Assembly (NCBI RefSeq): GCF_000688395.1 | Contig: NZ_JIAG01000002.1 | Coordinates: 1-64,000 of the forward strand | Direction of reading: 5' to 3' | Length of the DNA: 64,000 nt | Source: Haematomicrobium sanguinis DSM 21259 | GTDB lineage: Bacteria > Actinomycetota > Actinomycetes > Actinomycetales > Micrococcaceae | In this document: positions 9,210 to 30,524 of the stretch, piece after piece | How positions within the stretch are numbered: the first letter of the stretch is position 1 | How the letters are laid out: every line of letters begins with the position of its first letter | Notes under the pieces: model-generated | The model's database searches: none | Told to the model about the DNA's origin: nothing | The model's input: only the letters and a program-made list of their open reading frames with translations | Made by a program: the position numbers and the translations under genes

Positions 9210-12200
9210 TTACGAGTGCGTAACGGTCCCCAAATCGAGCCGGGTATCCGCGGCGCGCACGTCGCTATCCTGGTGCGTCACCTGCACCACACCGTGCCCG
9301 GCCAGGTGCGTGCGCAACTGGTCCTGAAGTTCGCGCGCCGTGGGCTCATCCAGGTGCGCGCTCGGCTCGTCGAGGCACACAATGTCCGCTCCCGCCAACA
9401 CCGCGCGCGCAATCGCGAGGCGTTGCCGCTCGCCGCCGGAGAGCCAGGACCCCGCAGGTCCCACCTTCGCATCCAGCCCGCCGGCGCGCGAGTCGACCAT
9501 GTGCGCGAGCCCCGCGGTTTTCAGCGCCGCCCACATCTGCTCCTCACCGACCTCCCCGGCACGGGACAACGCCAGGTTGCCGCGAATGGTCGAATCGAAA
9601 ATGTGCCCCTCTTGCGGGCACCAGGCGACCCGTGGCGCCAGTTCGCCCGGCGCCAGCATCCGCGGCGCATCGTTGACCGCAACACTGCCGCTCTCCGGGC
9701 GCAAAAACCCCAACATGATGGCCAGCAGCGTGGTCTTGCCGGAGCCGCTCGGGCCGGTGATGCTCAACCACTCCCCGCGCCGAACCCCGGCGGACACCGA
9801 TTCCACCGCGAGCGGCAGGTCTTCACCCCATCGGGCGCTCACCTGGTGAAGTTCGACGGCGTTAATCGCCTCGGTTGCCGGGTGTCCCGGGTTCGCGTGC
9901 TCACCATGCGGAATGTCTTTGGCGAGCGCCAGGACCGGGAACCACCAGCCGGCGGCGGATTGGGCGTTCATGATGGGTTCGGTCAGGGCGATCTGCATCA
10001 GCACAATGGTGAGCAAGAGCGGCGCAGCGACGGCCGTGCTTGCCCCGATCGGGATCATGAGCGCGGCGGTGAGCGCTTGAACTGCGGTAATCAGGGCAGC
10101 AGCCAGTCCGGTACTGCCCGCGAGCGCGTTCTCTGCCGGGACGGCTTGGCGATCCAGTTCGCGCAGGTGCTCCAGTTTGTGACCGAGCGTGCGGTGCACC
10201 CGCAGGTAGTCGCGTTGGCTGAGTGTGTCGAGCGTGGCGCTCACCAAGTCGGCGCGGAGCCCTCGTTGCAGCCGCCGGGCGCGGGCCTCGGTGATAAGGG
10301 AGAAACCCACCCCGGCAAGCACGCTCACTGCCACGCCGAGCAGCTGAATCCATAGCAGAGACGGCGCGAAGATGGCGGTGACCGCCGCCGCGGCGACGAG
10401 CACGATGGGTAGCCCCGCGACCGGCACAACCGCGCGAATGAGCGCATCGCGCAACTCATCGACCTTGACCACGAGGGCATTCACGCTCGCGGCCGGGGTA
10501 AGCCGCTCCTTGAGGCTCAGCGCCCGCTCGCTCAGATACTTCCACACCGCGGCCCGCCACTTGCCCTGCAGGTCAAAGACCACGTCATGGGACACCAAGC
10601 GTTCCAGGTAACGCAAGAGTGCGCGCGCCAGTCCGAAGAACCGGACGCCCACAATGGCGACCAACAAAAACAAAATGGGCGGCTGCTCGCTTGCACGCAC
10701 AATAAGCCAGCCGGAGAGTGCGCTTAACGCAATCGCCGCCATGGAGGCGAGCGCACCGGTCAGTACCGCCGCGAGGAGCCGCCACCGGGCACCGCGGGTG
10801 AGGTCGAGGACGGCAGCCCATCCGGTCCGAGTGAGCTCGGCATTGTCGGCGCTCGTCGCATCGCTGGCCGGGGCAGCCGCGCCAGGCGCCTCAATCACGG
10901 CAGCGTGCTTGGTTTTAGTCGGCTCGGGCAACGAGAACTGCAACGCCGGGTCCGCATTGGGCGGTTCGGCGATCGTACTCGGCGTTTCGCGCGGTGTCAG
11001 CGCGATCGTGGTGTCGGCAAGGTCTTTTACGTCGCGGTCGTGGCTTGCCACGAGGACCGGGGTGGTGCCGCGCAGTTCGTGCAGCCATTGAATCACGTCG
11101 GCGCGGCGGGCGCCGTCGAGGTGCGCGGTGGGCTCGTCCAACACCACGAGGGAGTCCCGCGTGCGTTGCACCTCGGCGCGCGCGAGTGCGAGCCGCCGCT
11201 GCTCCCCGGGAGAGAGCCAGGACGGGTGACGCTCAGCGAGGTCCTGCAGCCCGAAGCGCTCCAGCGCAGCGTTGATCGCGGCGTCGGGAGCCTGGCCAAG
11301 TTCCGCGCGCACCGTCGGCTCGGTAAACAAGGGGAGCTGTTGCACCCACAGGACATTCCGGTTCCGGTAGTTCGCCTCCAGCCAACGTCCCAACACGGTT
11401 GATTTTCCGGCGCCGCTCGGCCCGGTGAGCGCAAGGAATGGCGCACTGTCCGGGTCCTCCGTGAGTTCCTGTAGCCGTGCCGTGGCCGCGTCCCACTGGG
11501 GGTTCGCCGGTGCCGAGTCATCCGCGGCGTGCCCTGAGTCAGTGTCCCCGGTGGAGGTAACCGTATTGACGGCACGCGCACGTTGCGCGCGCGATTGCGC
11601 CAACGCCTCCAGCCCGTCCTGCGCCGCGTGATAGGAACTGCCCACCTCGCGCAAGGGATTGTAGATATCGGGGGCGAGGATCAGAACCAAGAGCCCGACT
11701 TCCAAACCGAGATCGCCCTTGACCATCCGTACCCCAATGACCACGGCCACGAGCGCCACCGAGAGCGTCGCAACCAGTTCCAGGGCCAGCGCGGAGAGGA
11801 AGGCAACGCGCAGGTTTTTCACGGTCGCCCGCCGGTACTCCCGAGAAATAGAGATGAGCGAATCGTGTCCGGCACGGGAGCGGCCGAGCCCCACCAATGC
11901 GGGCAGGCCGCGAGCGAGTTCGGCGAAGTGCTGACTCATGCGCAACAGCGCCTCGGTCGACTTCTTGGTGTTCTCCACCGTGTGCTGGCCAATGAGCACC
12001 ATGAAAATAGGGATGAGCGGAAGGGTGAGAAGCACCAGCAACGCCGAAAGCCAGTCTTGGCTGAGCACCACGAGCCCCAACACCAACGGAATGACGGCAG
12101 TCTGCGCAAGAGCCGGGACAAACTGCAGGTAAAACCCCTCCACCTTGTCCAGTTGCCGGGTGGCCGTCAGAGCCATCCCGGCGTCCCGGGATGCTCCTAG

Positions 12201-12503
12201 CGGCGAACTCTCGCCGGTCAACGCTCCCACCAATTCGGCGCGTTCACGCTCGATCACCACCCGGGCCCGGTTACGCCCAAAGACGCCTTGCACCCAAGCG
12301 GTCAGGCCCAAGAGCAAGGCTCCGGCGCTCGCCATCAATCCCGAACTGGCGGGAAGGATCGTATTGGCGGCAACGGCGGCGACTCCTTGAGTCAGCCCCG
12401 CGGCAAAGAGCACCAGGGCGGCCGCCCTCACCAGTGCGATGAGGGCGAACCCCAGCAGCGAACGCCGATCGATCAGTTCGTGGAGCTTGACCCCTGGCAC
12501 CAT
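9210..12503 (-). CDS. cydDC: Fused CydDC thiol/heme ABC exporter
   Basis: A 1097-residue protein joining both halves of the CydDC exporter, which is required for assembly of cytochrome bd. Half 1 (about 1-545): transmembrane region, Walker A GPSGAGKST near 362, signature LSPGEQRRLALARAEV, Walker B LVVLDEPTAHLD. Half 2 (about 565-1097): second transmembrane region, Walker A GPSGSGKTT near 920, canonical LSGGERQRLAIARAVL, Walker B IVCLDEPSAHLD. The first signature is degenerate (LSPGE), suggesting unequal ATP sites. ATG at 12503 lies 10 bases after the cydB stop; the longer open reading upstream runs through cydB and has shadow-like Arg/Ser-rich composition. Last gene of cydA-cydB-cydDC. Confidence 0.92.
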   Translation of the reverse strand: MVPGVKLHELIDRRSLLGFALIALVRAAALVLFAAGLTQGVAAVAANTILPASSGLMASAGALLLGLTAWVQGVFGRNRARVVIERERAELVGALTGESSPLGASRDAGMALTATRQLDKVEGFYLQFVPALAQTAVIPLVLGLVVLSQDWLSALLVLLTLPLIPIFMVLIGQHTVENTKKSTEALLRMSQHFAELARGLPALVGLGRSRAGHDSLISISREYRRATVKNLRVAFLSALALELVATLSVALVAVVIGVRMVKGDLGLEVGLLVLILAPDIYNPLREVGSSYHAAQDGLEALAQSRAQRARAVNTVTSTGDTDSGHAADDSAPANPQWDAATARLQELTEDPDSAPFLALTGPSGAGKSTVLGRWLEANYRNRNVLWVQQLPLFTEPTVRAELGQAPDAAINAALERFGLQDLAERHPSWLSPGEQRRLALARAEVQRTRDSLVVLDEPTAHLDGARRADVIQWLHELRGTTPVLVASHDRDVKDLADTTIALTPRETPSTIAEPPNADPALQFSLPEPTKTKHAAVIEAPGAAAPASDATSADNAELTRTGWAAVLDLTRGARWRLLAAVLTGALASMAAIALSALSGWLIVRASEQPPILFLLVAIVGVRFFGLARALLRYLERLVSHDVVFDLQGKWRAAVWKYLSERALSLKERLTPAASVNALVVKVDELRDALIRAVVPVAGLPIVLVAAAAVTAIFAPSLLWIQLLGVAVSVLAGVGFSLITEARARRLQRGLRADLVSATLDTLSQRDYLRVHRTLGHKLEHLRELDRQAVPAENALAGSTGLAAALITAVQALTAALMIPIGASTAVAAPLLLTIVLMQIALTEPIMNAQSAAGWWFPVLALAKDIPHGEHANPGHPATEAINAVELHQVSARWGEDLPLAVESVSAGVRRGEWLSITGPSGSGKTTLLAIMLGFLRPESGSVAVNDAPRMLAPGELAPRVAWCPQEGHIFDSTIRGNLALSRAGEVGEEQMWAALKTAGLAHMVDSRAGGLDAKVGPAGSWLSGGERQRLAIARAVLAGADIVCLDEPSAHLDEPTARELQDQLRTHLAGHGVVQVTHQDSDVRAADTRLDLGTVTHS

Positions 12504-12513
12504 GACGCGGCGC

Positions 12514-13584
12514 CTAGGACGCGTTGGAGCGCGGCGCGTCCGGATCGATGAGGATCTTGGACTTGATTGCGGCCACAATCGGGTGCGCCTTCGGGATGCT
12601 CTTGGTGGAGATGCGGCGGCGGAACACCCAGTAGGTCCAGATCTGGTACACCAACACGATCGGGACACCGATCGCCGCGGCGACGGTGACGAAGGTGAGC
12701 GTATAGGTCGCGGCGGCCGCGTCATTCACGGTCAAACCGAACGCCGGGTCCAGCGTGGAAGGCAACGCCATCGGGAACATGGCGAGCCCGACGCCCACCA
12801 TAATGGCCACCAAAAACACACCGTGGGCGGCGAACTGCCAGCCATCACGGCCCGCCCGGGCGGCAATCCACGCGCCGGCAAGAGCAAGAACGCCGACCGC
12901 CACCATGACCCAGGCAAGCACGTGCGAGGGCTGAGCGTTGACCACAATGAGCCAGCCGATCATCGGGATCCCGAAGAGCAGCGCGGTCTTCTTGAACAAC
13001 CCGGCATACTTTGCCCGCACCTCGCCGCTGGTTTTCAGGGTCAAGAACGCGTTGGCTTGGCTCAGGCAGAAGAGCACGACGGCGATGCCTCCTAAGAGTC
13101 CCGGCCAGCTGACCCAGGCGAGGGCTCCGCCGACCCGGTCGTGGTTTTCATTGAGCGGCAGACCCCAGCTCATGGTCGCCAAGACCACGCCGATCCAGAA
13201 CGCAGCGCATAGCGAGCCCAGCGAAATGGCCCAGGTCCATACGGTGCGCCAGCGTTCGGAGTCCACCTTGCCGCGGTATTCGATACCGGTGGCACGGAAG
13301 ATGAGCCCGACCAGGATGAAGAGGAACGGAAGGTACATTGCCGAAAGCGCGGCCGCATACCAGTTGGGCATGGCGGCGAACATCGCGCCGATCGCGGTGA
13401 TCAGCCACACTTCGTTGCCGTCCCAGACCGGGCCGATGGTGTTGAGCAGAACCCGCCGTTCCTTGTTGGTTCGGGCGGCAAAGGACATGTTCATGCCGAC
13501 GCCGAGATCAAACCCGTCCAAGAACAGGTAGCCGCTCCACAGCACCATGATGAGAACAAACCAGAGAGTGGGAAGAAATTCCAT
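12514..13584 (-). CDS. cydB: Cytochrome bd ubiquinol/menaquinol oxidase subunit II
   Basis: A 356-residue membrane protein of the CydB family, the structural partner of CydA in the bd-type terminal oxidase. The N-terminus has the diagnostic LWFVLIMVLWSGYLFLDGFDLGVG followed by GPVWDGNEVWLITAIGAMFAAMP. It has about eight further hydrophobic helices and is near usual length. The ATG at 13584 has AGGA at about 8 bases. It lies 29 bp after cydA and 10 bp before cydDC, in one operon. Confidence 0.95.
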   Translation of the reverse strand: MEFLPTLWFVLIMVLWSGYLFLDGFDLGVGMNMSFAARTNKERRVLLNTIGPVWDGNEVWLITAIGAMFAAMPNWYAAALSAMYLPFLFILVGLIFRATGIEYRGKVDSERWRTVWTWAISLGSLCAAFWIGVVLATMSWGLPLNENHDRVGGALAWVSWPGLLGGIAVVLFCLSQANAFLTLKTSGEVRAKYAGLFKKTALLFGIPMIGWLIVVNAQPSHVLAWVMVAVGVLALAGAWIAARAGRDGWQFAAHGVFLVAIMVGVGLAMFPMALPSTLDPAFGLTVNDAAAATYTLTFVTVAAAIGVPIVLVYQIWTYWVFRRRISTKSIPKAHPIVAAIKSKILIDPDAPRSNAS

Positions 13585-13613: not shown

Positions 13614-15215
13614 TCAGTAGGCAAAGGCGAGCACGTCGTCAGGTTCCTTTGCGGAACCCTGGTGAGTATCGCCGTCGTTCTTCTCATCATCCTCACCCGG
13701 CGGGTGAGCCAATTCCGGCATGGCCGAAGGCACCCCGGCGCGCACGTACTTGACGATGAGTGCGGTCTCCACCACGAGCAGGACAAGGTAAATGCTGCCG
13801 AGGATGACCAGCGAGGCGATCAGTTCGCCCGCGCTCACCCCGGGTGAGACGGCTGCCGCGGTGAACATGAAGACCCCATCGATGCCGGACGGGTCCGGGT
13901 TCGGTGCGACCACGAAGGGTTGGCGGCCCATTTCGGTGAACACCCAGCCGGCGATGTTCGCAAGGAACGGTGCTGCGATGCCGAGAACGGCGAGGCGCAT
14001 CAACCACGGCGATTGCGGCACGGTGCCGCGGCGAGTCACGATGAGCGCCACGAGTGCGGCAAGCGAGGCGAGGGCGCCGAAACCGATCATCATGCGGAAG
14101 CCCCAGTAGGTGACGACCATGACCGGGACGTACTGGACTTCCTGTCCGGCGCGGTCGCCGTAGATGGGACCGTCGGGCAGGTTGGTGCCGTACTTTTCCT
14201 GGTATTCCGGGATAAGCGTGTTGACGCCCTTGACGTTGGTTTCGAAGTCGCCGTTGGCCAAGAAGGACAGGATGCCCGGGATCTCGATGACGGCGGTGAC
14301 GTCATCGCAGTTGCGGGAGGCCACATCCCCGATGGAGAGCACCGAGAAGCTGGTGCCGTCGTTGCAGGCGGCTTCGGCGGCGGCCATTTTCATGGGCTGC
14401 TGTTCGAACATGAGCTTGCCCTGAATGTCGCCGGTGATCGCGGTGCCCGCGAAAGAGATCATGGCGACGACCGCGCCGATGCGCAGCGAGCGGATCCAGA
14501 CGGTGTAGTCGGTCTTGTCGCGGCCCGGGATTGCCGGGTTCTCGCCGACGATGACCTTCTTGTCCGGTCCCACGGTGTCGATACCGTCTTTGCGGCGGCG
14601 CCACAGTTGATACCAGGCGACGCCCAAGAGGAATGCGCCGGCGACGCCGAGTGCGCCGAAGATGGTGTGCGGGAAGGCGACGAGGGCGGTGTTGTTCGTG
14701 AAGACGGCCCAAGCGTCGGTCATGACTGGCTTGCCATCGATGAGTTCCACACCCACCGGGTGCTGCATCCAGGAGTTTGCGACCAGGATGAAGTACGCGG
14801 AGATCACCGAAGCGATAACCGCCGCCCACAGGCAGAAGAGGTGGATGCTGGGTTTCAATCGCTTCCAGCCAAAGATCCAGAGGCCAAGGAATGTCGACTC
14901 GACGAAGAAGGCGAGGAGCGCTTCCAGGGCGAGCGGCGCACCGAAGACGTCGCCGACAAAGCGCGAGTATTCGCTCCAGGCCATGCCGAATTGGAACTCT
15001 TGGACCAGGCCGGTGGCCACGCCCATGATGAAGTTGATGAGGAAGAGCTTCCCCCAGAATTTGGTCATCCGCAGATATTGCGGTTTGGCGGTGCGCCACC
15101 ACATGGTCTGCATTGTTGCCACTACGAGGCCGAGGCCGATCGTGAGCGGAACCATAATGAAGTGGTAGACAGTCGTGATGCCAAACTGCCACCGTGCGAT
15201 CTCGAGGGCTTCCAT
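13614..15215 (-). CDS. cydA: Cytochrome bd ubiquinol/menaquinol oxidase subunit I
   Basis: A 533-residue heme-bearing subunit of the bd-type oxidase, which reduces O2 to water with quinol electrons. Visible heme-ligand regions: His18 in TTVYHFIMVPL, the SWMQHPVG histidine, and the methionine of GFRMMIGFG. The C-terminus has VFTEMGRQPFVV. Length is close to the family norm of about 520. The ATG at 15215 has AAGGGG at 6 bases. It is first in cydA-cydB-cydDC. Two BlaI-like operators lie 35-69 bp upstream of the start codon, so the operon is probably repressed by the adjacent BlaI protein. Confidence 0.95.
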   Translation of the reverse strand: MEALEIARWQFGITTVYHFIMVPLTIGLGLVVATMQTMWWRTAKPQYLRMTKFWGKLFLINFIMGVATGLVQEFQFGMAWSEYSRFVGDVFGAPLALEALLAFFVESTFLGLWIFGWKRLKPSIHLFCLWAAVIASVISAYFILVANSWMQHPVGVELIDGKPVMTDAWAVFTNNTALVAFPHTIFGALGVAGAFLLGVAWYQLWRRRKDGIDTVGPDKKVIVGENPAIPGRDKTDYTVWIRSLRIGAVVAMISFAGTAITGDIQGKLMFEQQPMKMAAAEAACNDGTSFSVLSIGDVASRNCDDVTAVIEIPGILSFLANGDFETNVKGVNTLIPEYQEKYGTNLPDGPIYGDRAGQEVQYVPVMVVTYWGFRMMIGFGALASLAALVALIVTRRGTVPQSPWLMRLAVLGIAAPFLANIAGWVFTEMGRQPFVVAPNPDPSGIDGVFMFTAAAVSPGVSAGELIASLVILGSIYLVLLVVETALIVKYVRAGVPSAMPELAHPPGEDDEKNDGDTHQGSAKEPDDVLAFAY

Positions 15216-15249
15216 GATTATCCCCTTGTCAGAGCCCGATGTTCCTGTT

Positions 15250-15284
15250 TTCTACAGCTCGTAGAAATTCTACAGCTTGTAGAA
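15250..15284. promoter_or_regulatory. Two adjacent BlaI-type operators upstream of cydA
   Basis: TTCTACAGCTCGTAGAA (15250-15266, one mismatch) and TTCTACAGCTTGTAGAA (15268-15284, perfect 7-3-7 palindrome) lie 18 bp apart centre to centre. Both have the TACA/TGTA core of BlaI/MecI operators. They occupy the expected promoter region of cydA. Confidence 0.75.
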
Positions 15285-15370
15285 AACGGAGCGCTATTTA
15301 GCGTGGCCTTACTGAGTCCAAGGCTACTCGGCGAAAGGGAGATTGTCTGTGCACCCTCCTCTGGCCACCC

Positions 15371-15387
15371 TTCTACATCGTGTAGAA
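15371..15387. promoter_or_regulatory. BlaI-type operator upstream of blaI
   Basis: TTCTACATCGTGTAGAA is a perfect 7-3-7 palindrome with the same half-sites as those near cydA. It lies about 73 bp upstream of the blaI start and just before a candidate -10 (TAAGAT, 15407-15412), which suggests autoregulation. Confidence 0.75.
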
Positions 15388-15459
15388 AAACCCCGCGCGC
15401 GCCCGGTAAGATTAAGCTCACACACGCAAGCGAGAACAAGAAAAGAGCAACGGACGTCA

Positions 15460-15822
15460 ATGGCCACATTGGGGGAACTGGAACGCACGGTCATGGACGT
15501 GCTGTGGGAGACCGAAAAGTCGGTCAACGCGAACGAACTCCGCGAACTGTTGCTTGAGCGCTCCCGCCCCACCAAGGACCTTGCCGTCACCACGGTATTG
15601 ACCGTACTTTCCCGCCTGGAAAAGAAAGGCCTCGTGATGCGTGAGCGCGAAATCCGCCCGTACGCCTACCGCGCCGTGACCTCGCGCGCGGAGCACTCGG
15701 CCGACCTCATGGTGGAGGCTCTGGGGCAGGCTCCGGATCGCGAAGCGGTGCTGGCCCGGTTCGTCGGAACTGTCACCGATGATGAAGCCGAGGTCTTGCG
15801 AAAACTCTTGGGCGGTCACTGA
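15460..15822 (+). CDS. blaI: BlaI/MecI/CopY family transcriptional repressor
   Basis: A 120-residue winged-helix regulator. It has MATLGELERTVMDVLWETEKSVNANELRELL, then the recognition helix region AVTTVLTVLSRLEKKGLVMRER, and a dimerisation C-terminus, all at usual family length. Such proteins bind TACA/TGTA palindromes as dimers and are inactivated by a partner M56 protease. Three matching palindromes lie in the gap to cydA. The ATG at 15460 was chosen over an open upstream reading because it begins the conserved domain. The M56 gene follows 4 bases after the stop. Targets are inferred as cydAB-cydDC and itself. Confidence 0.88.
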   Translation: MATLGELERTVMDVLWETEKSVNANELRELLLERSRPTKDLAVTTVLTVLSRLEKKGLVMREREIRPYAYRAVTSRAEHSADLMVEALGQAPDREAVLARFVGTVTDDEAEVLRKLLGGH

Positions 15823-15826
15823 CGCC

Positions 15827-16762
15827 GTGCTGGCGACCTCCTACATTCTGGCCGCGCTCGCCATTTTTCTCGCGTGGCCGGCGCCGCTGATTCTCTCGCG
15901 CGCCGCCTGGCCCGCACGCTCTCCATTTGTCGCGATGATTCTGTGGCAGGCGATCGCCCTGGCCGGCGGACTCTCCATGATCGGCTCCATGTTGCTCTGG
16001 GGCCTGTCCCCCTTGAGCAGCAATATTTACGTCGCCACAAACGAACTTTTCCACCTGATTACCAGCGAACGCACCGTAGCCGAGTTCAACATCATCCATG
16101 TTTTCGCCGTCAGCACCGCCGGACTGTTATTCGCCCACCTGAGTTTTTCACTGTTGCTCACCTTTGTGCGTATTTATCGCCAACGCATCAAGCACCGGAA
16201 CCTGGTGGAGATCCTTTCCGCACCGAGCGCCACCCCCAACACCGTGGTCATCGAACACCCGGTGCCGGTGGCCTATTGCCTCCCCGGCGGCTCCCGCGGT
16301 GTGACGGTCATGTCCGACGGCCTCGTCGCTGCCCTCAGCCCGCAGGAACTGGACGCGGTCTTGACGCACGAGCGCGCCCACCTCGCTCAACGCCATCACC
16401 TCTTGCTGTGGGCATTCTCGGCCTGGCGCACCGCGCTCCCCTGGCTTCCCACCTCGCGATTGGCGCAACAGGCCGTCAACTCGCTGATCGAAATGCTCGC
16501 GGACGATTCCGCCCTGGCGACCACGGATCGAGGCACTCTGGTGCGTGCCATCGCCGTCGTCGCTACCGGGCAGCGCTCCCCCGGCACCGGTAGCGCGCCC
16601 GGCATCACCGATAACCCGGGAAGTACGACGACGGGACGTCGCCTTTCGCGCCTGCTCTCACCGCAAGCGCCCCTCACCGGATGGCAACGGGGTGCGGTGA
16701 TGGCGATCAGCCTGGCGCTGCTGGGGGTCCCGACGCTTTTGGTGCTCGCGCCCTATTCCTGA
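15827..16762 (+). CDS. M56 family (BlaR1-like) membrane metallopeptidase
   Basis: A 311-residue membrane protein with several N-terminal hydrophobic helices and the zinc-protease motif HERAH (in DAVLTHERAHLAQRHH), preceded by a PVAYCLPGGSRGVTVMSDGL block typical of M56 peptidases. It lacks the extracellular penicillin-binding sensor of true BlaR1, ending with one more helix, so its signal is probably not a beta-lactam. In the family, such proteases relieve repression by the neighbouring BlaI. The start is uncertain: GTG at 15827 lies just after the blaI stop, and an ATG at 15779 would overlap blaI by 44 bases. Convergent with parE, with a 6-bp gap. Confidence 0.85.
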   Translation: MLATSYILAALAIFLAWPAPLILSRAAWPARSPFVAMILWQAIALAGGLSMIGSMLLWGLSPLSSNIYVATNELFHLITSERTVAEFNIIHVFAVSTAGLLFAHLSFSLLLTFVRIYRQRIKHRNLVEILSAPSATPNTVVIEHPVPVAYCLPGGSRGVTVMSDGLVAALSPQELDAVLTHERAHLAQRHHLLLWAFSAWRTALPWLPTSRLAQQAVNSLIEMLADDSALATTDRGTLVRAIAVVATGQRSPGTGSAPGITDNPGSTTTGRRLSRLLSPQAPLTGWQRGAVMAISLALLGVPTLLVLAPYS

Positions 16763-16768
16763 GCCAGG

Positions 16769-18868
16769 TTAGGCGTCAATCCGTTCGCGGTCCAGCCGGT
16801 CCGCGCCCTCAATGATGAAGTCCTTGCGCGGGGCAACCTCGGAACCCATCAGGAGTTCGAAGACCTCCTCGGCCTGGGCGGCGCTTTCCACGCTGACCCG
16901 GCGCAGGGTGCGGCGGCGCGGATCCATCGTCGTCTCGGCGAGCTGATCGACGTCCATTTCGCCCAGACCCTTGTAGCGTTGCGGCGTTTTGTACCGCTTA
17001 TTTTCCTTCTCCAGCTTGGCCGTAAGCCGGTACAGCTCCGCATCCGAGTAGGTGTAAATCATTTCGTTGGGTTTGCCGTTGTGAATCACTTCGACACCGT
17101 GAAGCGGCGGAACCGCTGCGTACACGCGACCGGCGTTAATCATCGGGCGCATGTAGCGGAAGAAGAGCGTGAGCAAAAGGGTGCGAATGTGGGCGCCGTC
17201 GACGTCGGCGTCCGTCATCAGAATGACCTTGCCGTAGCGGGCGGCATCCAGGTCAAAGGTGCGTCCGGACCCGGCGCCGATCACCTGGATAATGGCGGCG
17301 CACTCGGCATTAGAGAGCATGTCGGAGACTGAGGCTTTTTGCACGTTCAGGATCTTGCCGCGAATGGGAAGGAGCGCCTGGAAGTCCGAGGAGCGCGCCG
17401 GTTTTGCAGTGCCGAGGGCGCTATCGCCCTCCACGATAAAGAGTTCGGATCGGGTGACGTCGGTGGAACGGCAGTCCGCCAGTTTGGCCGGTAGCGAGGA
17501 CGTTTCGAGCGCGTTCTTGCGGCGCTGGGTTTCCTTGTGCAGGCGCGCGGAGATGCGGGATTTCATCTCCGAGACAACTTTTTCCAGCACGAGCGCGGAC
17601 TGTGCCTTGTCGCCTCTCGCCGTGGAGTTAAGCCGTGAGGTGAGCTCTTTCTCCACAATCTTGGAAACGATCGCCCGGACCGCAGGGGTGCCGAGAATTT
17701 CCTTGGTTTGCCCTTCGAACTGTGGTTCGGCGAGGCGTACGGTTACCACGGCCGTCAGCCCGGCAAGGATGTCGTCCTTGTCAACCTTGTCACTGCCGGC
17801 CTTGAGTTTGCGCGCGTTCTGATCGATGACCTTGCGGAAGGTTTTCACGAGCGCTTGTTCAAACCCGGCCAGATGGGTTCCGCCTTTGGGCGTGGCAATG
17901 ATGTTCACAAAGGAGCGGATGGTGGTGTCGTAACCGATACCCCAGCGCAACGCGATGTCCACTTCGCAATCACGGCCCACTTCGGCAATGGTGGAATGCC
18001 CGTTCTCATCCAAGACCGGAATGGTTTCCTTAAAGGAATCGGTGCCGTGAATGCGCCATACGTCGGTGACGGGGCCGTCGGCGGCGAGAAAATCGACGTA
18101 CTCGGTGATGCCGCCATCGTGTTGGAAGACTTCTTCCACCGGACCGTTTTCGCCGGGGGTTCCGGGCAGGCGGCGCTCGTCTCGCAGAGTGATTTTGAGC
18201 CCGGGAATCAGGAAGGAGGTTTGCCGGACGCGAGCCTCTAACTCGACGTAGTCCACGGCGGCATCGGGGGTGAAGATTTGCCGGTCCACCCAATAGCGGA
18301 TCCGGGTTCCGGTCACGCCGCGCTTGGCCTTGCCGATCACGGCCAACTCCGATTTCTCGGTAAACGGAGTAAAGGTGGAGGTCGGAGACGCCTTGGTCCC
18401 GGTGTCGGCGAAGGTGCCCGGTTCGCCGCGGCGGAAAGACATGGCGTACGTCTTGGATCCGCGATCGACCTGTACGTCTAGACGGGTGGAAAGCGCGTTG
18501 ACGACGCTTGCGCCCACGCCGTGCAGGCCACCGGAGGCGGAATAGGAGCCGCCGCCGAACTTTCCGCCGGCATGAAGCTTGGTGAAAACGACCTCGACGC
18601 CGCTCAGCCCGGTTTTGGGTTCGATGTCCACCGGGATGCCGCGGCCCTCGTCACGCACCTCGATGCTCTGGTCCTTGTGCAGCACGATCACGATGTGTTG
18701 ACCGAACCCGGCAAGCGCCTCGTCAACCGCGTTGTCGATGATTTCCCATATGCAGTGCATGAGGCCGCGGGAATCGTTGGACCCGATGTACATGCCGGGG
18801 CGCTTGCGAACCGCCTCCAGCCCTTCGAGGACAGAGAGGTGGCGAGCGGAATAATCAGATGTGGGCAC
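16769..18868 (-). CDS. parE: Type IIA DNA topoisomerase subunit B (ParE/GyrB family)
   Basis: A 699-residue ATPase subunit of a type II topoisomerase. It has a GHKL ATPase domain (EIIDNAVDEAL; DEGRGIPVDI; GGLHGVGASVVNALS), the Toprim motifs EGDSALG and DADVDGAHI, and QRYKGLGEMDVDQL near the C-terminus. Location between sigA and DUF7455 matches the actinobacterial ParE-like paralogue rather than the gyrB beside dnaA; no A subunit lies in the window. The GTG at 18868 has AGGTGA 8 bases upstream. An in-frame GTG at 18880 would add four residues but would overlap that ribosome site. Confidence 0.88.
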   Translation of the reverse strand: MPTSDYSARHLSVLEGLEAVRKRPGMYIGSNDSRGLMHCIWEIIDNAVDEALAGFGQHIVIVLHKDQSIEVRDEGRGIPVDIEPKTGLSGVEVVFTKLHAGGKFGGGSYSASGGLHGVGASVVNALSTRLDVQVDRGSKTYAMSFRRGEPGTFADTGTKASPTSTFTPFTEKSELAVIGKAKRGVTGTRIRYWVDRQIFTPDAAVDYVELEARVRQTSFLIPGLKITLRDERRLPGTPGENGPVEEVFQHDGGITEYVDFLAADGPVTDVWRIHGTDSFKETIPVLDENGHSTIAEVGRDCEVDIALRWGIGYDTTIRSFVNIIATPKGGTHLAGFEQALVKTFRKVIDQNARKLKAGSDKVDKDDILAGLTAVVTVRLAEPQFEGQTKEILGTPAVRAIVSKIVEKELTSRLNSTARGDKAQSALVLEKVVSEMKSRISARLHKETQRRKNALETSSLPAKLADCRSTDVTRSELFIVEGDSALGTAKPARSSDFQALLPIRGKILNVQKASVSDMLSNAECAAIIQVIGAGSGRTFDLDAARYGKVILMTDADVDGAHIRTLLLTLFFRYMRPMINAGRVYAAVPPLHGVEVIHNGKPNEMIYTYSDAELYRLTAKLEKENKRYKTPQRYKGLGEMDVDQLAETTMDPRRRTLRRVSVESAAQAEEVFELLMGSEVAPRKDFIIEGADRLDRERIDA

Positions 18869-26920: not shown

Positions 26921-27128
26921 ATGCGGGAACGGGCGTGAGCATGGCCACATCCGAGCCGCGCGCGGAGTAATTGAGTGGAGCTTGGGCGTTCACTAGTTAT
27001 AAGGTGAAAACCGGAGCGTGCTTTGCGCACATCAGAGTGCTCACGCCGCCCCACACTATTTGTTCGAGACGCCTTGCTGGTCTTTCACGTTGACGGGGCG
27101 TCGATCTGATCCGCGAGGGAGCGCTACA

Positions 27129-28514
27129 GTGGCCGATTCGGCAGCTTCGCAAGAGTTCGATGTATTGATTCTCGGAGGCGGTAGCGGTGGTTACGCTGCT
27201 GCACTGCGTGCCGTGCAGGCCGGCCTGAGCGTCGGCCTGATTGAAAAGGATAAGCTCGGCGGCACCTGTCTGCACCGCGGCTGCATCCCCACCAAGGCGT
27301 ACTTGCACTCGGCAGAAGTGGTGCACGAGATCCAGGACGCCGCAAAGTTCGGCGTCAAAGCCACCCTTGACGGCGTGGACATGCCTGCCGTCAAGGCGTA
27401 CAAGGACGGCATCGTTTCCGGTAAATTCAAGGGCCTCCAAGGTCTTTTGAAGGCACGCGGCGTGACCGTCATCGACGGCCACGGCAAGCTCGTGGGCCAA
27501 GACACCATCGAAGTGGACGGCACCAAGTACAAGGGCAAGAACATTGTGCTGGCAACCGGTTCCTACTCGCGCACGCTCCCCGGTCTGGAAATCGGCGGCA
27601 AGGTCATCACCTCAGAAGAGGCTCTCAATATGGAGACCCTCCCGAAGAGCGCGATCATTCTGGGCGGCGGCGTCATCGGCGTGGAGTTCGCATCCGTCTG
27701 GTCCAACTTCGGTGTCGATGTGACCATCATCGAGGGTCTGCCCTCCCTGGTTCCCAATGAAGACCCGGCCGTCATTAAGGCGCTGGAGCGGGCCTTTAAG
27801 AAGCGCGGCATCAAGTTCAACACCGGAACCTTCTTTGAGTCCGTGGAACAAAACGAAAATGGCGTAACCGTCAAGCTCGCCGATGGCAAGACCTTCGAAG
27901 CCGACTTGCTACTGGTAGCCGTGGGCCGCGGCCCCGTGACCGACGGCTTGGGCTACGAGGACCAGGGCATCACCTTGGACCGCGGCTTTGTCATCACCAA
28001 CGATCGTCTGCACACCGGCGTGGGCAACATTTACGCGGTCGGTGACATTGTTCCTGGTGTGCAGTTGGCGCACCGCGGCTACCAGCAGGGCATTTTCGTC
28101 GCCGAAGAAATCCTGGGCCTGAACCCGGTGGTCGTGGAAGACATCAACGTCCCGAAGGTCACCTACACCTCCCCGGAAATCGCTTCGGTGGGCTACAACG
28201 AACCAAAGGCCGCCGAAAAGTTTGGCGCCGACAACATCGAAACCTTCGAGTACAACCTCGCTGGAAACGGCAAGAGCTCGATCCTGGGCACCGGCGGGTT
28301 CGTCAAGGTCATTCGCGAGAAGGACGGACCCGTGGTCGGTATTCACATGATCGGCGATCGCATGAGCGAACAAATCGGCGAGGCACAACTCGTTGTCAAC
28401 TGGGAAGCGTACCCGGAGGATGTTGCTCCGCTCCTGCACGCGCACCCCACTCAGAACGAGGCCATGGGCGAAGCATTCATGATGCTCGCCGGGAAGCCCC
28501 TCCACGCCATGTAA
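27129..28514 (+). CDS. lpd: Dihydrolipoyl dehydrogenase (E3)
   Basis: A 461-residue FAD flavoenzyme that reoxidises dihydrolipoyl groups with NAD+. It has the FAD site LILGGGSGGYAAALRAVQAG, the redox disulfide GGTCLHRGCIPTK (Cys47, Cys52), the NAD motif ILGGGVIGVEFASVW, and C-terminal HAHPTQNEAMGEA carrying the catalytic His-Glu. The GTG at 27129 follows GAGGGAG and begins the conserved domain; the longer open reading is not family-like. The E2 gene lies 117 bp downstream, with a hairpin between them. Confidence 0.95.
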   Translation: MADSAASQEFDVLILGGGSGGYAAALRAVQAGLSVGLIEKDKLGGTCLHRGCIPTKAYLHSAEVVHEIQDAAKFGVKATLDGVDMPAVKAYKDGIVSGKFKGLQGLLKARGVTVIDGHGKLVGQDTIEVDGTKYKGKNIVLATGSYSRTLPGLEIGGKVITSEEALNMETLPKSAIILGGGVIGVEFASVWSNFGVDVTIIEGLPSLVPNEDPAVIKALERAFKKRGIKFNTGTFFESVEQNENGVTVKLADGKTFEADLLLVAVGRGPVTDGLGYEDQGITLDRGFVITNDRLHTGVGNIYAVGDIVPGVQLAHRGYQQGIFVAEEILGLNPVVVEDINVPKVTYTSPEIASVGYNEPKAAEKFGADNIETFEYNLAGNGKSSILGTGGFVKVIREKDGPVVGIHMIGDRMSEQIGEAQLVVNWEAYPEDVAPLLHAHPTQNEAMGEAFMMLAGKPLHAM

Positions 28515-28520
28515 GTGTCT

Positions 28521-28550
28521 GGGTGCGTGCGCCACACGGTGCACGCACCC
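28521..28550. terminator. Terminator between lpd and sucB
   Basis: A 10-bp GC-rich stem (28521-28530 with 28541-28550), GGGTGCGTGC and its complement, 7 bp after the lpd stop. The T-tract is weak, so read-through into sucB is possible. Confidence 0.6.
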
Positions 28551-28631
28551 GGTTCACTTTCTTGCCGCACCGCTCGACAATAGAATTCACAACAACTTAA
28601 AGATTTTTCACGAAGGAGAAACGGGGACATC

Positions 28632-30524
28632 ATGTCGGAAACCGTTAATTTGCCCGCCCTAGGCGAGAGCGTGACCGAGGGCACCGTGACTCGCTGGCTC
28701 AAGCAAGTGGGTGACCAGGTCGAGGTTGACGAGCCGCTGCTCGAAGTCTCGACCGACAAGGTTGACACCGAAATCCCCTCTCCCGTGAGCGGTGTTTTGG
28801 AAGAAATCTTGGTTCAAGAAGACGAAACTGCCGACGTGGGAGCCCCGCTCGCACGCATTGGCGACGGATCAGGATCGTCCGATTCCGGCTCCGCCGATGC
28901 CGACAATTCGGATGCCGCCGATGACTCGGCGTCTGGCGAGAGCACCGAAGAGAGCGCTCCTGCCGAGGAGCCCGCTCCTGCCGAAGAACCGGCACAGGCT
29001 GAGCAGCAAGAGTCGAGCGATTCGAGCGAACCTGCACAAGGCAATGCTGGCGGCAACACCACCGAAGTGACCCTCCCGGCGCTTGGCGAATCCGTCACCG
29101 AAGGCACCGTCACCCGCTGGCTCAAGGAAGTCGGCGACGACGTCGAGGTTGACGAACCGCTCCTGGAAGTGTCCACCGATAAGGTCGACACCGAAATCCC
29201 GTCTCCGGTGGCCGGAAAGCTTGTCGAAATCAAGGTGGGCGAAGACGAGACGGCCGAGGTTGGTGCCGTGCTCGCCCTGGTAGGCGACGGCAGCGGCTCT
29301 AGCGCGTCTGCACCGGCCGGCAACGACCAAGACTCGTCTCAGGACGAGTCCGCAAAGGAAGTTCCTTCCACGGAGGCTCCGGCCCCGGATGAGAAGGAAT
29401 CCGAGCAGGCCGCTCCCCCGGCACCCGCTCCAGCACCGGAGGCCGAGAAGCCTGCCGCAAAGGAAGAGCCTGCTGCTCGGGAAGAATCAGAGCCGAAAGC
29501 CCAGACCCAAGAATCCGCGCAACCGAAGTCCGCATCGGCGGATGCGGGTTCGAACGCGACCGATTTCGGTTACGTGACCCCGATTGTGCGCAAGCTCGCT
29601 TCGCAAAAGGGCGTGGATCTGAACTCCCTCACCGGTACCGGAGTTGGCGGACGCATCCGCAAGCAAGATGTGCTCGATGCCGCGGACAAGGCACAGTCGG
29701 CCCAGTCGGCGTCGGCTCCTGCCGCACCGGCTTCTTCGGCACCGGCGAACACCGGGTCTGGATCTTCCGCGCCCGCTGCGGCCCCCAAGGTTGTGCCCTC
29801 CAAGCTTCGCGGAACGGTGGAGAAGGCTCCGCGCATCCGCCAAGTTATTGCCCGTCGCATGAAGGAGTCCTTGGCCGAGTCCGCGCAGCTGACCCAGGTG
29901 CAGGAAGTCGACATGACTCGCGTGGCAAACCTGCGCAAGGCGGCCAAGGGTAGCTTTGAGCAGCAAAACGGTGCGAAGCTCACCTTCTTGCCTTTCATTG
30001 CGAAAGCTGTGACCGAGGCGCTGAAGGCACACCCGAAGCTCAACGCGTCCTTTGACGAAGAGGCGAAAGAGATCACTTACCACGATGCCGAGCACCTGGC
30101 CATCGCGGTAGACACCGAAAAGGGCCTGCTGGTTCCGGTCATCAATGATGCCGGGATGCTCAACCTGGCCGGACTGGCGCAGAAGATCGCCGACGTCGCC
30201 TCCCGTACCCGCAACAACCAGTTGGGGCCGGATGAGTTGACCGGCGGCACCTTCACCATCACCAACATCGGTAGCGTGGGCGCGCTCTTCGACACCCCGA
30301 TCATCAACCAGCCCCAAGTCGCGATCTTGGGCACCGGCGCGATCGTGAAGCGCCCGGTTGTGGTCACGGTCGATGGCGAAGACACCATTGCGATCCGCCA
30401 GATGATGTACCTCTCGCTCACCTACGATCACCGACTGGTGGACGGCGCGGATGCCGGTCGTTTCTTGCAGACCGTCAAGCAGCGCCTCGAGCAGGGAGCT
30501 TTCGACGCGGACCTCGGCCTCTAG
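28632..30524 (+). CDS. sucB: Dihydrolipoamide acyltransferase E2 with two lipoyl domains
   Basis: A 630-residue E2 core of a 2-oxoacid dehydrogenase complex. Order: lipoyl domain 1 (lipoyl Lys43 in [12 protein letters not shown]), acidic/Ala linker, lipoyl domain 2 (Lys184, nearly identical motif), long Pro/Ala/Glu linker, E1/E3-binding domain (about 313-355; [23 protein letters not shown]), and catalytic domain with DHRLVDG (His600, Asp604). The actinobacterial family is usually annotated SucB but also serves the pyruvate complex; substrate is not decided here. lpd is upstream and lipB/lipA downstream. Candidate -10 TAGAAT at 28581. An AAGGAG at about 28613 lies rather far from the ATG. Confidence 0.93.

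Follow-up and report, generated by a model that had tools for sequence, protein, structure and literature searches.

A gene pair that probably steers respiration rather than antibiotic resistance lies next to the cytochrome bd genes in a 64,000-nt stretch of the Haematomicrobium sanguinis DSM 21259 genome (hereafter the window; contig NZ_JIAG01000002.1, positions 1-64,000, from a genome of 2.9 Mb in 27 contigs). The pair encodes a BlaI/MecI-type repressor (blaI) and a BlaR1-like M56 membrane protease and is divergent from cydA-cydB-cydDC, and the intervening gap contains three copies of a palindrome that is the predicted BlaI operator. BlaI and BlaR are usually read as regulators of antibiotic resistance. 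From comparison of genome sequences, control of cyd by BlaI is strongly supported because the arrangement is conserved, the sites stay with cydA where it is unlinked from blaI and they are absent where BlaI is absent. The explanation that we consider likely as a whole is that BlaI is an autorepressor of a respiration and heme regulon and is inactivated by the M56 protease. The observation made in the original prediction for this locus was confirmed, and its regulatory reading, that BlaI controls cytochrome bd, was partly supported: it was right in its core but too narrow, given that hemQ, the atp operon and other genes also carry the operator.

Conservation of the operators and their association with BlaI

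Pfam matches and coordinates agreed with the predicted gene order (Table 1). The match of BlaI to PF03965 extends over residues 4-117 of 120 (75.7 bits, Pfam cut-off 22.6) and its sole PDB sequence match was 2g9w (phmmer E 7e-19), which is recorded there as a conserved hypothetical protein and which we take to be Mycobacterium tuberculosis BlaI. The M56 gene follows blaI after four bases, and the gap between blaI and cydA (15216-15459, 244 bp) holds two palindromes facing cydA and one facing blaI, as had been predicted. The form first given for them, TTCTACA-N3-TGTAGAA, held as a palindrome but not in its 7-bp arms and 3-bp spacer, as comparison of relatives gave the consensus TTCTAC-N5-GTAGAA with 6-bp arms and a variable 5-bp spacer. 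Among 145 exact sites in the gaps of 70 loci, whose arms were fixed by selection, position 7 could be any of the four bases and position 11 was C or T in 136. No RNA families were found within 14000-17500.

Table 1. Genes and candidate operators of the cyd-blaI locus, numbered by position in the window (aa, amino acids).
Feature	Position	Strand	Description
cydDC	9210-12503	(-)	fused ABC transporter for cytochrome bd assembly, 1097 aa; Pfam ABC_membrane and two ABC_tran stretches; same strand, downstream of cydB; start codon chosen by us
cydB	12514-13584	(-)	cytochrome bd subunit II; PF02322, E 2.2e-93
cydA	13614-15215	(-)	cytochrome bd subunit I; PF01654, E 6e-149
Operator 1, TTCTACAGCTCGTAGAA	15250-15266		centre 43 bp upstream of cydA start; one mismatch to 7-bp arm
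Operator 2, TTCTACAGCTTGTAGAA	15268-15284		centre 61 bp upstream of cydA start, 18 bp from operator 1; exact 7-bp arm match
Operator 3, TTCTACATCGTGTAGAA	15371-15387		centre 81 bp upstream of blaI start; exact 7-bp arm match
blaI	15460-15822	(+)	BlaI/MecI-type winged-helix repressor, 120 aa; Penicillinase_R PF03965, E 4.9e-21
M56 gene	15827-16762	(+)	M56 (BlaR1-like) membrane zinc protease without sensor domain, 311 aa; GTG start

The window contained four palindrome matches within 3 mismatches against 0.48 expected, a number that none of 100 shuffles reached. Over the whole source genome TTCTAC-N5-GTAGAA was found 10 times exactly and 15 times within one mismatch, as compared with 0 and 1 for the reversed control. 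Across 100 genomes of the family there were 469 exact sites in 91 genomes (reversed pattern: 38 in 30 genomes), and all 32 genera sampled had exact sites somewhere in the genome.

Related genomes were searched for the palindrome and for the blaI-M56-cyd order, as the original prediction had proposed. By BlaI the nearest named relatives are Specibacter, Arthrobacter and their kin, which presumably belong to the Micrococcaceae. BlaI was detected in 91 of the 100 family genomes at E 1e-8 (in G010, G040, G064 and G087 the best match was distant, E about 1e-13), and 70 blaI loci were examined, one per genome, with 21 further BlaI-positive genomes left out. The M56 gene followed blaI in 70/70 loci and cydA was divergent in 63/70. 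Every one of the 63 cydA-linked gaps contained an exact site, 53 of them two or more and 23 three, compared with 0/1400 shuffled gaps. When the gap, or 300 bases 5' of blaI where cydA was not adjacent, was scanned, an exact site was present upstream of blaI in 69/70 loci; the remaining locus, which has a one-mismatch site, is one of the seven in which blaI lacks an adjacent cydA. A second set, consisting of the best 80 of 576 named relatives, had M56 in 80/80 loci, cydA in 75, at least one site in 80 and at least two in 75 (the gap or the 300 bp upstream of blaI being scanned), with no exact site elsewhere in these loci of about 10 kb; the two sets share genomes and are not independent. The site nearest cydA was centred 18-87 bp away in 58/63 linked relatives and the site nearest blaI 56-169 bp away in 65/69 loci with a site. 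Distances between neighbouring sites were 21-26 bp in 55/76 cases (mode 24-25), and the 18 bp of the window was the sole case of its length.

Across the genomes compared, the sites follow BlaI, not cydA. Exact sites were present in 90/91 BlaI-positive but in 1/9 BlaI-negative genomes (Fisher p 4e-10, kinship ignored). The BlaI-less genomes span three genera and four of the nine have cydA, and in 0/4 was there a site within 2 mismatches across the 4.5-kb cydA locus. A distant cydA could be located in three of the seven genomes lacking linkage (G034, G004 and, by a 58 percent partial CydA match, G065), and in all three a pair of exact sites, spaced by 23-25 bp, lies upstream of it. Duplication could have given three copies in one gap, with operators 1 and 2 being 94 percent alike, and the palindromes might then be chance or structural repeats of no regulatory role. 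We regard this as refuted, its probability being practically negligible, because of the shuffled gaps and the tie to BlaI presence, to which the occurrence of exact sites in every genus sampled can be added.

The operators could also belong to another regulator, such as a BlaI paralogue or a redox or heme regulator, with blaI-M56 merely one of its targets. A second BlaI-type protein, 42 percent identical, is indeed encoded in the source genome (G000:C2:176827-177150, L362), and the target set described below resembles the respiration regulons of other regulators (Rex, HrrA). However, the 5-kb locus of the paralogue had no site closer than 3 mismatches, and the paralogue was rejected as the operator binder since it has no site at its own locus. 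Members of three genera that lack BlaI also lack the site (G058 excepted), and both the dyad and its position before blaI fit autoregulation. In family f75, Tyr replaces the Val, Leu, Thr, Ala or Pro that precedes the TT of the recognition helix, and the perfect gap palindromes, present in 3/5 loci, read TACTAC or TACGAC. Taken together this makes control by another regulator very unlikely. The paralogue adjoins genes read as thioredoxin-fold and CcdA-like.

Outside the family, of 21 order-level loci (among the 30 best order matches) 20 had cydA divergent from blaI-M56, and an exact site was present in 12/21 gaps, in families f4 and f67 only. Tyr precedes the recognition-helix TT in seven order-level loci (the five of f75 included), as in 2g9w, and perfect 6-5-6 gap palindromes were found in three of those seven, reading TACTAC or TACGAC. 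In three f75 loci (L184, L186, L189) blaI-M56 is divergent from a distant cydA type (37-39 percent), also with TACTAC or TACGAC palindromes. Use of the exact motif throughout the phylum was rejected, as 16/246 phylum genomes carry it, the source genome and one family member included.

The M56 protease and the nature of the signal

The M56 protein consists of N-terminal membrane helices, a domain with HExxH (181-185) and ExxAD (222-226) motifs and one C-terminal helix. Both motifs were kept in 85/85 aligned M56 proteins, and Tyr150-Cys151, His190 and Arg272 were likewise invariant. The invariant Tyr-Cys pair sits in the strand before the HExxH helix, where Cys151 could be a redox or metal handle. 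The last helix covers residues 285-307 of 311 and the protein ends four residues later, so the predicted lack of a penicillin-binding sensor was borne out; no penicillin-binding domain was found in the protein. The open frames of 84 M56 relatives have at most 420 codons, compared with the 556-residue BlaR1 chain.

An AlphaFold model of the protein (63 sequences; predicted local distance difference test score, pLDDT, 93.6) had Staphylococcus aureus BlaR1 (8exs) as its best structural match, with Z 11.9 over 215 residues and a root-mean-square deviation of 6.0, residues 5-270 of the model aligning to 1-291 of BlaR1. Five BlaR1 entries occupied ranks 1-4 and 7 (Z 9.6-11.9, 205-219 residues), and human and yeast M48 proteases came close behind for the protease half (Z 9.0-9.9). 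From the model, the protein looks like a BlaR1-like transducer without the sensor.

The absence of a sensor domain speaks against a beta-lactam signal, as does the lack of a site at the single Beta-lactamase2-type match of the source genome (none within 2 mismatches in 3.5 kb around it; the search did not extend to other beta-lactamase families or PBP2a); no beta-lactamase was seen among the nameable targets. To this extent the original claim that the signal is not a beta-lactam stood. It was weakened by the report that in M. tuberculosis amoxicillin-clavulanate induces blaI-blaR and cydAB despite a BlaR without sensor, which leaves an indirect route (PMC5473688). In the alternative proposed for that species, the pair serves a beta-lactam or envelope stress response with cytochrome bd as a side-branch, and M. 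tuberculosis BlaI is reported both to repress blaC and to be present at the cyd and atp promoters (PMC5473688). A gene read as mannose-1-phosphate guanylyltransferase, divergent from sdhC at three sites (L139, L143, L146), could be the target there under such a response. Against the alternative stand the missing penicillin-binding domain, the lack of a site around the Beta-lactamase2-type match and the absence of beta-lactamases from the targets that could be named, and we consider it unlikely. The target set speaks instead for a signal from respiration, the membrane or heme, and the M56 protease would respond to one of these.

Extent of the putative regulon

Seven further exact sites were found in the source genome. 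One separates hemA from hemE, another precedes hemQ, and a third precedes an ABC gene that is followed at some distance by a ctaA-like gene. The others stand in front of ctaC-ctaD, of the small gene that opens the atp operon, of a DJC28 gene and, at a distance of 20 bp, of a membrane gene of 125 aa that follows a MatE pair. The labels for CtaA, CtaD, AtpB and the small atp gene were assigned from sequence by eye, without family-model support, and three one-mismatch sites inside long open frames (C12:85708, C9:108540, C4:213913) were not counted as targets.

For each of hemQ, atp and ctaC we inspected the 30 top-ranking orthologues in the family, all of them from genomes that have BlaI. An exact site was present within 300 bp of hemQ in 25/30, and a site within one mismatch in 29/30 (reversed control 0/30), which makes hemQ the most constant of the three targets outside blaI-cyd that were tested for exact sites. 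Before the atp operon a site within one mismatch was found in 27/30 cases, its distance to the small first gene being 45-114 bp (control 0/30). The flanks of the atp and hemQ sites had an information content of 0.2-0.33 bit per column and the arms, partly by selection, 1.9-2.0. At the atp site (L251-L280), T at position 6 in 26/27 cases comes together with a better conserved spacer, often CTCGT, which might reflect adaptation to weaker binding or to a second protein. As a general target ctaC was rejected, the site being present only in the source genome (1/30).

The frequency of sites at hemQ bears on a narrower form of the favoured explanation, in which BlaI and M56 respond to the status of heme or of its synthesis and act mainly on cyd and hemQ. 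The sites between hemA and hemE and before hemQ in the source genome would fit it, as would the invariance of Cys151 and His190 in the protease. On the other side, neither His91 nor His104, both in the third membrane helix, is invariant (kept in only 60 and 74 of 85 proteins), and heme ligation by these residues was rejected (no further heme-motif search was made). We regard this special case as possible but rather doubtful.

Thirty loci carrying the 7-bp-arm pattern were read and comprised blaI-cyd (14, one without cyd), hemQ (6), the flavohemoglobin gene hmp (3), the polyphosphate kinase gene PPK2 (2) and ccs (resA; 1). Forty loci at non-blaI sites were then tallied from 12 genomes, which were hand-picked from the listed places rather than sampled at random, with Pfam run on representatives. 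These comprised hemQ (7), a membrane gene of 125-130 aa that follows a MatE pair (5), hmp (4), a 132-aa-type membrane gene (4, in at least 2 beside isocitrate lyase), a pyridoxamine-oxidase-like gene (3), sdhC or the divergent guanylyltransferase-like gene (3), cydAB, unlinked or as a second copy (2), a membrane gene of 115 aa that follows a 2-oxoacid dehydrogenase E2 gene (2), qcrC (1), ccs (1 close and 2 beyond 600 bp) and a gene of 211 aa preceding a DUF1775 gene (1). By these comparisons the putative regulon extends beyond cyd to hemQ and atp; hmp, qcrC, ccs and small membrane genes belong to it in a smaller number of genomes.

Neither the E2 gene nor the membrane gene adjoining MatE was accepted as a target, given that both are followed by the site, which in turn precedes a gene for a small membrane protein. 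Such small proteins recur right after the operator, with about 125-130 aa (L010, L117, L125, L133, L151, L155), 115 aa (L134, L150) or 132 aa (L137, L142, L147, L148); no Pfam families were found in those of L133 and L137, and the kind of about 125-130 aa is also present in the source genome. In two relatives (L134, L150) the E2 gene is directly followed by the operator, unlike in the window, where dihydrolipoamide dehydrogenase-like and 2-oxoacid dehydrogenase E2-like genes (27018-30524, read by eye) had no operator within 3 mismatches nearby. The operator upstream of hmp suggests a possible link with nitric-oxide stress. At these hmp loci (L118, L122, L129, L153, L026, L031, L033) an Rrf2-type (NsrR-like) gene is near in four of seven, with Pfam run on L118 only.

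In the mechanism that we propose, BlaI as a dimer would bind the TTCTAC-N5-GTAGAA palindromes and hold down blaI-M56 and cydABDC, repression being presumed rather than activation. It would also repress hemQ, hemA/hemE and atp, and in the source genome ctaC and the ABC-ctaA locus. Upon disturbance of the membrane or the respiratory chain the M56 protease would inactivate BlaI by cleavage, a step that we infer because the two genes are adjacent in all 70 loci, and with the loss of BlaI cytochrome bd and heme supply would go up together.

Several observations weigh against this explanation. A sigma-70-like promoter was sought in the 244-bp gap and none was found, and as the arms were chosen by match, their conservation over the flanks is partly by construction. 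G089 is BlaI-positive and has no exact site, and G058 lacks BlaI and has one. In four of the seven genomes with a solitary blaI, cydA was not found at E 1e-20 and blaI-M56 with its site was still there, so cyd is a non-obligatory target. Two order-level loci (L181, L182) have BlaI, M56 and cydA but no site within 2 mismatches. At atp, T replaces C6 (TTCTAT) in 26/27 cases, so that the site may be weaker or belong to another protein, and the result for ctaC implies that part of the target list from a single genome may be chance or lineage-specific. No nameable target was present in 5/40 and 4/30 of the loci read at sites. As to the protease, Pfam ranks Peptidase_M48 (E 1.4e-10, 41.8 bits, cut-off 20.3) above Peptidase_M56, which is under its cut-off (E 1.2e-4, 21.8 bits against 31). 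Foldseek alone gave a best E of 1.6e-3 with a TM score of 0.36 and nothing at E 0.001 or better, and the structural comparison tool warns that Z below about 13 can mean a mere common helical arrangement.

Relation to known systems

Respiratory control by BlaI is already known in one genus, in the sense that M. tuberculosis BlaI (Rv1846c) is reported at the cytochrome bd and ATP synthase promoters, together with a BlaR (Rv1845c) reported to be without an extracellular sensor (PMC5473688, PMC12565901). For the gene that precedes atp (Rv1303 or its homologue) an electrophoretic mobility shift assay and lowered transcription are described (PMC12565901), and BlaI control of the atp operon or atpH is mentioned elsewhere (PMC5874750, PMC8265638); 'BlaI' in PMC10581053 stands for blaIII and is irrelevant. 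The present BlaI is a homologue by its match to 2g9w, and the sites at cyd (63/63 linked, 3/3 unlinked) and atp recall the respiratory regulon of M. tuberculosis. Here, in contrast, cydABDC itself is the divergent neighbour of the pair, the predicted operator reads TTCTAC-N5-GTAGAA, hemQ is often among the targets and no site accompanies the single Beta-lactamase2-type gene. With the BlaR1-BlaI and MecR1-MecI systems of S. aureus the pair shares the combination of a repressor and a membrane zinc protease (PMC5473688) and the similar membrane and protease fold noted above, but it differs in lacking the penicillin-binding sensor domain and in its respiratory targets.

The outputs are also similar to those of Rex and HrrSA of actinobacteria, which act on terminal oxidases and heme; these belong to different protein families, and here a membrane protease takes the place of NADH sensing or a histidine kinase. 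Among the matches listed from open-licence PubMed Central literature, no BlaI operator at cyd or hem genes was found for the family, and the cyd-linked arrangement, the defined operator, the hemQ target and the fixed atp variant are apparently unreported there. As a tentative and somewhat doubtful suggestion, BlaI-M56 of Actinomycetota may ancestrally have been a respiration and heme circuit in which the sensor-less protease itself reads the state of the membrane or of electron transport, with penicillin sensing and control of beta-lactamase added later in other lineages.

If the proposed mechanism is true, it would change the reading of BlaI and BlaR genes across the Arthrobacter-type family and would link cytochrome bd, HemQ heme synthesis and ATP synthase under one switch. 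For M. tuberculosis, what the sensor-less BlaR detects is left open in PMC5473688, and the family would offer non-pathogenic models for what such a protease detects.

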